A stretch of 54,303 nt of DNA from an uncultured Oscillospiraceae bacterium (GCA_949737515.1 CATJCP010000204.1:1-54303), one strand, 5' to 3'; positions 33,600 through 37,522 are shown, counted from the stretch's first letter. The notes: generated by a model from the sequence alone, not told the origin. Made by a program: numbers and translations.

Positions 33600-33866
33600 T
33601 TATGCCATCAATTCATAGACTTCACACAATGCAAGCTGTGTAGCAGTAACTTCATTTTCCAAGGCTGCATTTCTTTCTGCCTGAATCTTGATATATTCAT
33701 CCTTAGAATACTCTGCAAGGTCAAATTCAAAACCTGTGAACCCTTGCTGTTCATCAGTTCCCGGTTCTTCAATCGGGGTAATGTTGGAAGCCACAAAAAC
33801 CTTGCTTTCTGTCAATTCGATTTCAAGCGGCTTTACAGTGCTTCGCTGCTTTCCATAGTCAATCAT
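33600..33866 (-). CDS. Hypothetical phage tail-region protein
   Basis: 88-aa ORF, start overlaps RT stop (ATGA). Confidence 0.7.
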   Translation of the reverse strand: MIDYGKQRSTVKPLEIELTESKVFVASNITPIEEPGTDEQQGFTGFEFDLAEYSKDEYIKIQAERNAALENEVTATQLALCEVYELMA

Positions 33867-34990
33867 GCTGCTTTACTTCCTTTCTTGTTTGGTTTTATGT
33901 TGCGTGTATAATAATCATCCGCATAGGGTAACAGCGGAACAACATACTTTTGTTGTAGCCGGAAAGAATCACACCATTTCAACCATCCCTTATAGCTGTT
34001 GATGCAGCACCATTCAGAATAGTTCATCATGTTCCCTGATTCTACCTTTAACCTGATAGCGGTAAGTTTCCGTTTCATATCATTGCAAGTGGATTTTCTA
34101 AGTAAGGTGTAATTCAGAAAAGTTCTATAGCCTAAGAAATCAACACCCCTTACATAAGTTGGGAATACTTGCCAATTATCTTTGATTCTGATTTTCAGGT
34201 TTTCCCTGAAATATACATCAATTTCTTTCCTTAATTCGTGAAGTTCTTCTTTTGTTTCTCCGAAAATACAAATATCATCCATATAGCGGAAGTAATATTT
34301 GACTTTCTTTTCTTCTTTAATCCAATGGTCAAAGCTGCTGAAATAGTAATTTCCGCTATACTGTGAAAGATAGTTTCCAATGGGAATACCTGTGTTTGGG
34401 TCAATATCTTCTTCCAACAGATAGATTGCAGATAAATCTTCAATTTCAGCGGTTGTGATACTGTCAATGATTTCACCCAATAACCAAAGAAGTTCATTGT
34501 CTTTGAACATCCTTGAATATTTTTCTTTTAAGATTTCGTGATTCACTGACTGATAATAGTGCCTTGCATCAATTTTCAAGCAGTATTGACAATGGGGAAC
34601 ATCATTCCACATAGCATTTTGCAGCTTGGATAATGCCTTATGAATCCCCCTTTTCGGTATAGCTGAATAGGTATCATCAGTAAGGTTGTTAATAATGCAA
34701 GGTTCAATTACTTGCAGAATCGCCCATTGACAAATTCTATCCGGGAAATAAGGCAGTTTATAAATCTTCCGGGTTTTCTTCCCTTCATTTTTATAGAAAA
34801 CCTCATAATCAGAAGTTTTATAGGTATGATTGATAAGCATTTGTTGAAGCAACCCAAGATAGTATTCCGGGTTTTCATCAATCATCCTTACTTCCTGATA
34901 CCAACCTTTTCCCTTCTTTGCGTGTTGATGGGCTTTTCTTAAATTTTCTATGTCATATATCTTTTCATAAAGGTTATCATAGCGTTTCAT
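33863..34990 (-). CDS. DGR reverse transcriptase
   Basis: RT motifs KIDARHYYQSVNHEIL, GIPIGNYLSQYSGNYYFSSFDHWIKE, YFRYMDDICIFG; adjacent TR/VR pair. Confidence 0.95.
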   Translation of the reverse strand: MKRYDNLYEKIYDIENLRKAHQHAKKGKGWYQEVRMIDENPEYYLGLLQQMLINHTYKTSDYEVFYKNEGKKTRKIYKLPYFPDRICQWAILQVIEPCIINNLTDDTYSAIPKRGIHKALSKLQNAMWNDVPHCQYCLKIDARHYYQSVNHEILKEKYSRMFKDNELLWLLGEIIDSITTAEIEDLSAIYLLEEDIDPNTGIPIGNYLSQYSGNYYFSSFDHWIKEEKKVKYYFRYMDDICIFGETKEELHELRKEIDVYFRENLKIRIKDNWQVFPTYVRGVDFLGYRTFLNYTLLRKSTCNDMKRKLTAIRLKVESGNMMNYSEWCCINSYKGWLKWCDSFRLQQKYVVPLLPYADDYYTRNIKPNKKGSKAA

Positions 34991-35161
34991 TCATCCTTGT
35001 TTTTGTATGCAATAGACGGTCAAGTTTTCAAACGGTCATTTGAAAAGTTAATTTCAAAACAACCTACCAACATAACCTTCCGTTTGTCCTTAATCCTTTC
35101 CGACTAAGATTCTGTGTTTTGCCAAGTGGCACGGTCTAAAGGTTACCACATTTTATTGAAA

Positions 35162-35188
35162 CAGCCGGGGCTATTGCTTCCCCGGCTG
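35162..35188 (-). other. Hairpin just 3' of TR in the TR-RT spacer
   Basis: Perfect 9-bp stem CAGCCGGGG/CCCCGGCTG, 9-nt loop. Confidence 0.7.
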
Positions 35189-35195
35189 AATCTTG

Positions 35196-35312
35196 CATTT
35201 ACTAAGTGACTGCTGATATTCCGATTCCGATTACTGACACTGTTATTCAGATTCCAATAGAAAGTACCTGCATTACTGCCATTATTCCAATTACTGCCTA
35301 ATTGAGCGATTT
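35196..35312 (-). repeat. DGR template repeat (TR)
   Basis: Gapless 117-nt alignment to VR at +250 offset; all 35 mismatches at TR adenines (coding strand). Confidence 0.96.
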
Positions 35313-35377
35313 ACTTTAATGGTTTTTATTACAGGCATAACAAAGTAATTTCAGCAAACCTTTTGACCTATATATCT

Positions 35378-37522
35378 TTAAGCTGCCATTTTTTCCTTCC
35401 AAGAAGCAATAGCAGCAAGATAAACCTGTGAATCCTTGGTTGGTACATACACCAAGCGACCGCCGACATCCCGAGCCCGAGCACCGACACCGTAAGCCAG
35501 AAACCAACAGAAAGCACCCGCAATACCGCCATGAGCCCAACGACCGCCCAACCGAGCGATACGGTAACCATTCAGGTTCGGTGTAATGTAATGATAATCA
35601 CCAACAGGAAGGGAACTGTTACCAAGGCATTCAGAAGCTATGAACAGCCAATCACACTTTGTTGAATATCCCATAGCGGAAATATAGCCGTTTGCGTTGG
35701 TTACTGTGAACCCTGCACCTTCATAATTTCCGCTGTTCTTCGATTCAGCAAAATTGAAGTCAGTACAAATAAACGGCTGACCGCCACCCATTGCACCATT
35801 TCCCCAAATGTTAATTCCATAGACAAACTTCCAAATGTTACCCCAAGGGTTTTCTGTACCTCTCCAAGTGATAGCAGTTTTTCCGCTTGCGGTTTCGGTT
35901 GTGGTTGTTCCACCTTTTTCATTGATGGTTTGCGCTGCCTGACCTGTTCCATTCCCAAGGCTTGAAGTGCTGCCAGTAAGGGAAGAACAGTTGAACGCTG
36001 AATTATCAGCAATGGAAACCACACCCTGACCAATCCCGGTTTGTGTGTTCATCATGCCAAGTTCAACAATCATTAAAAGCTGTCTTGCAGAAACAGGCTT
36101 AATCAAGTCACCATGCCAGTTATCACCCCGGTTCTTTGCCATCTGTTCAATGTTTGGTCTTGTAAGGTTTTGGGTTAAGCCGGATGCAGGTTTAGCCCCG
36201 GCAATGGAACAGAACTTATCAGCGGAAACAGTCATTACCTGTTCATCAAGCAGCAGATAAGCACCTGTTCCATCTGCACCACCGTCAGCATCCCAAATAG
36301 AACCTTCAAAAGCAGAATCAAGGATATAATCAATCTCATTTCCATTTGCATCATAAAATGCCGGATGCAGCCGGAAACCTGTCCTTGGTTTTTCGCTGAC
36401 ATAGTAGTTTGCTTTTCTCAAATGGTAACCAATCCCGGTTTCAATCGGGTCATATACCACCGGGCAAACAAGATAGTAGAACTTAGGTTGATAAACCATA
36501 ACCTGCCCCATGCTGCCATCTTCTGCATAATCAGCATCACCGTGCCATGCAACAATAGTTCCATCATCAGCAACATTACAACGCTTTCTTCCACCGTACA
36601 TAGAAAAGCGGTCAAAATCTGCACCATTTGTCAGATTGACCGCCCCGGCAATTCGTGTGAAAGTTTTGTTCTTGTAATCCACCTGAACACCAAGAATATC
36701 TTCATCAGTCAAACCAAGGTAAGCCCTCAAATCAGCAACCCCGGCAAGAATTTCCTGACTGTTGAAGTTTTCACTTCTCAATTCTTCCAAATTTGAACTT
36801 GCTGAACTGTTTTCAGCGGATAAAGACTGTAAAACAGCATTAGCAGTTACAACAGAAGAATCAAGGTTTGTTTTCGCTGTGTTCGCTTGGGTAATCACCC
36901 CGGATAATTCAGCTTTAATATTTCCGGCATCATCAATCACATTCTGTAACTGATTCTTTGCCGTTATAGCATCAGAAATTGCAGTTTCAAGATTGCTTTT
37001 AGCAGTAGCAGCGGTTTTGTTCGTGCTATCCAAAGTTGCCTTGATACTGTTTGCATTGTCAATCACACCCTGTAAAGCTGTTTTTGCATTATTGGCACTT
37101 GTGATAGTAGTATCAAGGTTGGTTTTTGCGTTTTCAGCATTGGTTTTCGCTGTGTTCGCTGCTGCTGTTGCAGCTTCCACTTCACCCTTTTTGGTGTTCG
37201 CTGCACTTGTGGCATTGGTAAGATTGGTTTTTGCCGTATTAGCGGTTGAAGTAGCATTTTGCAGATTGGTTTTTGCTGTGTTCGCTGCACTTGTGGCATT
37301 GGTAAGATTGGTAATAGTGGTTTGTGCTTCTGCAACTTTGGCATCAAAAGCGGAAACCTGACTATCAACATTATCCTTTGCTGCAATCACATCTTTCTTC
37401 AACTGCTGATAACTTTCATTATCATCATTGACCTTCTGCAACGCATTGATAATAGAACTTCTGACTTCCTCACCATATACTGCATCCTGAATCTGTTTGA
37501 TATAAGGGTCAATATTTGCCAT
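35378..37522 (-). CDS. DGR target protein: tail-fiber-like, coiled-coil N-term, C-type-lectin-like (formylglycine-generating-enzyme-type) C-term
   Basis: 714 aa; NATSAANTAKTNL-type repeats; C-term WGNIWKFVYGINIWG...GYRIARLGGRW; VR at C-term. Confidence 0.92.
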   Translation of the reverse strand: MANIDPYIKQIQDAVYGEEVRSSIINALQKVNDDNESYQQLKKDVIAAKDNVDSQVSAFDAKVAEAQTTITNLTNATSAANTAKTNLQNATSTANTAKTNLTNATSAANTKKGEVEAATAAANTAKTNAENAKTNLDTTITSANNAKTALQGVIDNANSIKATLDSTNKTAATAKSNLETAISDAITAKNQLQNVIDDAGNIKAELSGVITQANTAKTNLDSSVVTANAVLQSLSAENSSASSNLEELRSENFNSQEILAGVADLRAYLGLTDEDILGVQVDYKNKTFTRIAGAVNLTNGADFDRFSMYGGRKRCNVADDGTIVAWHGDADYAEDGSMGQVMVYQPKFYYLVCPVVYDPIETGIGYHLRKANYYVSEKPRTGFRLHPAFYDANGNEIDYILDSAFEGSIWDADGGADGTGAYLLLDEQVMTVSADKFCSIAGAKPASGLTQNLTRPNIEQMAKNRGDNWHGDLIKPVSARQLLMIVELGMMNTQTGIGQGVVSIADNSAFNCSSLTGSTSSLGNGTGQAAQTINEKGGTTTTETASGKTAITWRGTENPWGNIWKFVYGINIWGNGAMGGGQPFICTDFNFAESKNSGNYEGAGFTVTNANGYISAMGYSTKCDWLFIASECLGNSSLPVGDYHYITPNLNGYRIARLGGRWAHGGIAGAFCWFLAYGVGARARDVGGRLVYVPTKDSQVYLAAIASWKEKMAA
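35446..35562 (-). repeat. DGR variable repeat (VR) in target gene
   Basis: See TR; encodes RIARLGGRWAHGGIAGAFCWFLAYGVGARARDVGGRLVYV. Confidence 0.96.

Follow-up and report, generated by a model that had tools for sequence, protein, structure and literature searches.

Two modes of adenine readout in an Avd-less diversity-generating retroelement of a prophage tail module

Repeats, target gene and reverse transcriptase

The window analysed here is a 54,303-nucleotide stretch of DNA from an uncultured Oscillospiraceae bacterium (GCA_949737515.1, CATJCP010000204.1:1-54303). It contains a diversity-generating retroelement (DGR) that comprises a target gene, a variable repeat (VR), a template repeat (TR), and a reverse transcriptase (RT) gene, all located on the minus strand. 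The non-coding TR (35196..35312) and the VR (35446..35562) align over 117 nt without gaps at an offset of 250 nt. They differ at 35 positions, and every mismatch falls on a TR adenine: 35 of the 41 adenines and none of the 76 other bases are changed, with 23 A-to-G, six A-to-C and six A-to-T substitutions. If mismatches could fall anywhere, the probability of all 35 hitting adenines would be 10^-23. The first-pass annotation of this DNA had reported the same gapless, adenine-only alignment, and our search for non-adenine mismatches returned none. An equivalent scan of the 28-42 kb region for C-, G- or T-specific repeat pairs yielded nothing, and neither a third repeat copy nor a further VR was found in the 3.7-Mb draft genome. 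A seed-based repeat search misses the TR/VR pair, because the seeds are broken by the adenine changes.

The target gene (35378..37522) encodes a tail fibre of 714 amino acids (aa), which is assigned to the tail protein family phrog_5302. The VR occupies codons 654-693 and is followed by 21 codons, so that it lies, as initially described, within the last 61 codons of the open reading frame (ORF) 37522-35378. The C-terminal 460 aa were modelled with AlphaFold2 (AF2) from an alignment of 30 relatives (predicted local distance difference test, pLDDT, 85.9; predicted template modelling score, pTM, 0.89). The best solved structures for this model are DGR variable proteins, TaqVP with an E value of 5.5e-10 and then, weakly, BPP-1 Mtd. 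The C-terminal domain is therefore predicted to have a C-type lectin (CLec) fold, and the receptor-binding role of the fibre tip proposed in the first-pass annotation would fit such a fold.

The RT gene follows the TR and encodes a protein of 375 aa with a YMDD box (33863..34990; ORF 34990-33863), in agreement with the first description of the locus. Its motif IGNYLSQ fits the DGR pattern (I/L/V)GxxxSQ, and group II RTs have QGxxxSP at this place. The best match by sequence in the PDB is 8ub7 (E 7.5e-28), which we take to be the BPP-1 DGR RT (bRT). In a tree of 73 RTs, the window RT is placed among the DGR RTs, and the group II RTs split off at 100/100. The sampled RTs from systems that carry the Avd protein (Avd+) form one cluster in this tree, and the window RT belongs to a separate 55-row group together with that of crAssphage LMMB. 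A weak similarity to group II RTs, below the NCBIfam cut-off, might suggest that the enzyme is a group II intron RT or another non-DGR RT and that the repeat is coincidental. This reading is refuted by the tree, by the SQ motif standing in place of QGxxxSP, and by the TR/VR pair, which lies just before the RT gene in nearly all of 80 viral relatives; we give it a negligible chance.

Comparison of sister phages with an identical TR and near-identical flanks reveals how the VR varies. The VRs of L034, L035 and L036 differ at 17-19 sites and those of L088 and L089 at 16 sites, every one of them a TR adenine. In the pairs L029/L031 and L021/L086 this holds for 17 of 19 and 12 of 13 differing sites, respectively. 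Over 52 comparisons of VRs sharing one TR, non-adenine sites differ in only 15 of 3104 cases, so that VR variation against a constant TR, proposed as a check by the first-pass annotation, is almost solely confined to TR adenines. These sequences speak for past activity of the DGR in the lineage. A further isolate of the phage in the window was not found, and activity of this exact copy is inferred. Several Bacteroidota loci, among them L041, L053, L065 and L068, have one TR for two to three tandem VRs at offsets of about 190, 590 and 970 nt.

The adenine-only TR/VR differences, the SQ-motif RT within the DGR clade, the location of the VR near the 3′ end of the target, and the VR variation with the TR held constant are sequence-level features of a DGR. 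Together with the predicted target fold, they all agree with the initial interpretation, and we regard it as practically certain that the locus is a genuine DGR.

Two modes of adenine readout

The adenines of the window TR fall into two groups. Eleven of them (35299, 35295, 35277, 35269, 35265, 35241, 35235, 35214, 35211, 35207 and 35203, minus strand) stand in the contexts CAG, TAG, CAC or TAC (YAG/YAC), and all 11 are G in the VR. The remaining 30 show a near-random VR state (A 6, G 12, C 6, T 6). The unusually high proportion of changed adenines, 35 of 41, results from the combination of the two groups.

The same pattern is observed in the lineage, for which 131 TR-VR pairs from 41 TR clusters were counted. 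The CAG adenine is G in the VR in 388 of 391 cases, and the pooled YAG adenines are read as G 456, A 8 and T 3. An adenine before A or T has a VR state of A 760, G 569, T 538 and C 331. In the 52 comparisons of VRs sharing one TR, the proportion of differing sites is 3/135 for CAG and 0/21 for TAG, versus 140/220 for AAT, 129/185 for GAA and 42/61 for CAA. At positions -13 and -43, phages vary in having A or G in the TR, and the VR has G either way. These toggles, together with the sister comparisons and with the fourfold-degenerate and interior sites considered below, indicate that CAG adenines are nearly always copied as G in the clade. We are highly confident that the fixed A-to-G recoding is a real property of the lineage, and it is likely that it is produced by the RT while copying the template. 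Slippage on the 3′ neighbour was considered as a cause of the A-to-G change and rejected, since CAC gives G as well.

A fixed G could also be explained by purifying selection on Gly, Arg and Leu residues of the lectin scaffold, with the RT misreading the CAG adenines in the normal way. Most CAG sites are indeed codon position 1 of a Ser AGY codon read as Gly GGY (237 of 238 are G), and conserved Gly residues are compatible with a CLec scaffold. However, all 108 fourfold-degenerate CAG sites are G as well, whereas the fourfold sites in the GAG, GAA and AAT contexts are mixed. Moreover, most phages retain A at these sites of the TR, and this would come at a cost if every round of copying randomised those adenines. 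Selection is thus an unlikely explanation. It is also conceivable that only the middle of the VR is rewritten and that its ends carry old, fixed differences from the TR, resembling those of the initiation of mutagenic homing (IMH) region. Many CAG sites are located in the outer thirds of the TR, and the last adenine (-1) is T in 21 of 23 cases. This is countered by the CAG sites that have, on each side and no more than 15 nt away, an adenine changed to C or T, all 139 of which (63 loci) are G, and by the absence of sister differences at CAG sites inside the variation zone (0/53); besides, old differences would not be limited to adenines. We consider such a history very unlikely for the VR as a whole, although it may hold for the last few nucleotides beside the P1 helix described below.

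The A-to-G change might further arise before or after reverse transcription, through adenine deamination of the TR RNA or through repair of heteroduplex mismatches in the VR to G. A near-complete A-to-G change without A-to-C or A-to-T looks more like an edit than an error, and the pairing of CAG with CGG yields a T:G mismatch at a CpG. The cassette contains no deaminase or repair gene, though, and CAA, which would yield the same CpG mismatch, is variable, differing between sisters at the sites counted above. TAG behaves like CAG without a CpG. An origin outside the copying step is therefore given a small chance, and recoding by the RT is the reading that we follow.

Several observations weigh against a general form of the rule. 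Within the clade, crAssphage LMMB (CAG: G 2, A 2) and Perkons (G 2, A 1) follow it only in part and Arawn (A) does not follow it, so that it does not extend to all Avd-less RTs. The TR clusters are related to each other, so the counts are not fully independent. The Avd+ controls hold few CAG sites (two A in one set and one G in another), and the contrast with Avd+ RTs therefore comes mostly from CAC, which stays A in 9 of 9 cases in Avd+ TRs, and from the absence of such sites.

The spacer RNA and the Avd-less architecture

The region that extends from the 3′ end of the TR to shortly before the RT gene (35002..35205, minus) corresponds to a conserved structured spacer RNA, which is matched by the covariance model R1 with 134 bits. 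It is closed by the helix P1. The 5′ strand of P1, ATGCAA (35193..35198), lies at the TR 3′ end and starts 1 nt past the last changed adenine (35199), and its 3′ strand, TTGCAT (35007..35012), lies 16 nt before the RT start. The helix encloses a variable GC hairpin directly behind the TR (CAGCCGGGG-AAGCAATAG-CCCCGGCTG, 35162..35188), which is missing in some relatives, and a core hairpin, TGCC-ACTT-GGCA followed by AAACA (35120..35131), which is nearly invariant among the relatives. In the helix P4, the strand GGTTA-T-GTT (35069..35077), followed by GGTA, pairs with AAC-T-TGACC (35018..35026), which is preceded by GAA; all these elements are on the minus strand. In the internal loop of P4, a conserved RGUA (35065-35068) stands opposite GAA (35027-35029), an arrangement similar to a G-bulged (sarcin-ricin, loop E) motif.

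RNAalifold predicts 17 base pairs in three helices of the spacer, and compensatory changes are found in 11 of the pairs. The proportion of paired cells (95.4% vs 83.8%) and the covariation (0.448 vs 0.233) exceed those of shuffled alignments, none of 500 shuffles being as high, and the structure collapses when it is slid along the alignment. The sequence of P1 varies while its pairing is kept: ATGCAA/TTGCAT in the window, TTTGTG/CACAAA in L026, and CTTTGTGAT/ATCACAAAG in L034. Of the 31 near and mid loci, 27 have a P1 that is anchored at the last changed adenine, compared to 13.4 after shuffling of the partners (0 of 2000 as high), and in 16 of 21 cases P1 starts 1 nt after this adenine. The covariance model matches all near and mid relatives searched, the Bacteroidota loci weakly, Perkons, and LMMB (E 5e-5). 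It matches neither the Avd+ loci nor BPP-1, and a search of Rfam gave no match. In the Coprococcus comes group L005-L009, the 3′ half of the spacer is swapped for a different fold, with the core hairpin and a P1-like pairing kept.

In BPP-1, bRT-Avd is bound by the folded spacer between TR and RT, and the complementary DNA (cDNA) is primed within the TR 3′ junction from an internal adenine (PMC12875486). By analogy, we lean towards P1 being the cDNA-priming helix that sets the cDNA start, with a priming adenine probably located just 3′ of P1, near 35006. This role is weakened by the distant Bacteroidota loci, where P1 exceeds chance by a modest margin only (16/45, with 28 of 2000 shuffles as high). 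The covarying, P1-closed spacer RNA of the lineage is unreported in the literature searched.

No bAvd (PF22296) was detected in the window's own genome and in 24 relatives by a search that finds the BPP-1 control; the family is present in 31 of 300 Bacillota genomes. A second Avd model, PF05635, matched none of the controls and was therefore uninformative. The GC-rich hairpin with a 4-nt GRNA loop after the VR is found in none of 41 lineage loci versus 9 of 11 Avd+ loci; in BPP-1, a GC-rich hairpin at this place is needed for efficient homing (PMC3240598). The identity of TR and VR past the last changed adenine extends over a median of 3 nt in the lineage versus 19 nt in Avd+ loci, and the lineage lacks the IMH region of the BPP-1 type, in which about 20 nt at the TR/VR 3′ end stay unchanged. 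The TRs of the lineage contain about 40 adenines versus 23 in Avd+ loci. The longest identical TR/VR block has 11 nt, compared to 24 nt in Avd+ loci, and it grows to 19 nt after in-silico recoding. Within the 22-nt 3′ zone, the TR differs from the VR at a median of five sites and the recoded cDNA at two. The first-pass annotation was right in calling the element a complete DGR, but it overlooked the missing Avd, the missing VR hairpin and the fixed YAG/YAC adenines.

The neighbouring genes encode a tape measure protein, a prophage tail endopeptidase, a holin, an endolysin, a major head protein and a portal protein. This confirms the earlier placement of the locus in a prophage tail module, the prophage being truncated by the contig end. 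Among named relatives, the closest occurs in Coprococcus comes. An 88-aa gene (33600-33866, phrog_18126) overlaps the RT stop by 4 nt. It was considered as a replacement for the DGR accessory factor and rejected, because phages without an RT (L152-L155, L160, L164, L166-L168) carry the same fibre gene with the 88-aa gene directly behind it; it is a general tail-module gene. The RT-less phages also indicate that the TR-RT cassette is gained or lost as a block. The fibre C-termini of L152, L154, L164 and others among them resemble frozen VRs in which the CAG positions hold G. The window's own genome encodes another RT of the DGR type (LGFHTSQ, YMDD; L149) on contig C72 (8002-6899, minus). This contig is prophage-like and has an integrase, its RT groups with the Arawn and LBR48 RTs, and a 95-aa gene similar to the 88-aa gene follows the RT. 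Neither TR/VR nor a target was found for this RT, the contig ending 266 bp upstream of it.

Proposed mechanism and relation to known systems

We consider it very likely, on the strength of the sequence comparisons, that we are dealing with an Avd-less DGR of lineage 3 and of the active type, with the order target gene-VR-TR-RT, carried in the tail module by a prophage whose host is probably a member of the Lachnospiraceae, and that it works broadly as follows. In the folded transcript of TR and spacer, the TR 3′ end would pair with the strand just before the RT gene, forming P1. The RT would bind the spacer fold and begin cDNA synthesis at or beside P1 without Avd. During copying of the TR, an adenine before A or T would give rise to all four bases, and that in CAG, mostly also in TAG and CAC, would nearly always be read as G. 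The cDNA would then replace the VR and alter the lectin-like tip of the tail fibre.

Fixed recoding makes the cDNA match the VR better than the TR, so it may take the place of the IMH/IMH* mismatches and of the VR hairpin known from BPP-1: the recoded cDNA would be sent to the VR and not back to the TR. We put this targeting role forward tentatively. Its extension to Avd-less DGRs, with context-coded adenines as a built-in target marker replacing IMH/IMH* discrimination and the P1-closed spacer RNA priming without Avd, is likewise a possibility that we rate slightly below even. If true, it would offer a testable answer to how the cDNA spares its own template without IMH* and hairpin. Template diversity would also be counted differently, with 30 instead of 41 diversifying adenines in this TR. 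Furthermore, a compact DGR with only two parts, RT and RNA, may be easier than bRT-Avd to reconstruct for use in directed evolution.

Descriptions of DGR mutagenesis usually treat it as random at adenines, and the lineage is widespread in gut phages. The DiGReF survey found the substitutions to be essentially random, without strong enzymatic bias (PMC3521204). In the context map of BPP-1, the base on the 3′ side of the template adenine influences misreading, which averages about 31% and has mixed outcomes (PMC12875486). The 3′-neighbour dependence is common to both systems, but here CAG is read as G in about 99% of cases and the readout is near-random elsewhere. No published report of near-complete, context-fixed adenine recoding was found in the literature searched, which does not include key subscription papers, and relative to this literature the two-mode readout is unreported.

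The nearest systems are the prophage of Coprococcus comes MSK.16.63 (L084) and the IMG/VR loci L004-L009, which share the cassette and the tail gene order and have RTs that are 82-86% identical. Their TR and VR sequences are different, and the spacer of L005-L009 has diverged in its 3′ half. The general plan is already known: crAssphage LMMB is filed under the Avd-less 'lineage 3' of Wu et al. 2018 (as cited in PMC7290462), and the window locus shares with it the order target gene-VR-TR-RT without avd, a CLec target and an RT of the same clade. LMMB differs in following the CAG rule only in part, with its TAG adenines read as G in three cases, and neither the spacer RNA nor the two-mode readout has been described for lineage 3 in the literature searched. 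The BPP-1 DGR (bRT-Avd, mtd) resembles the window locus in its RT family, the adenine-only change from TR to VR, the lectin-fold tip protein and a structured spacer (PMC12875486). Unlike the window locus, it has Avd, a GC hairpin after the VR, and mostly AAC adenines, and its spacer is unmatched by the covariance model. BPP-1 and the Avd+ group also keep an unchanged 3′ end of 17-25 nt, unlike the lineage, which the two-mode readout and the P1-closed spacer RNA set apart from the BPP-1 model.

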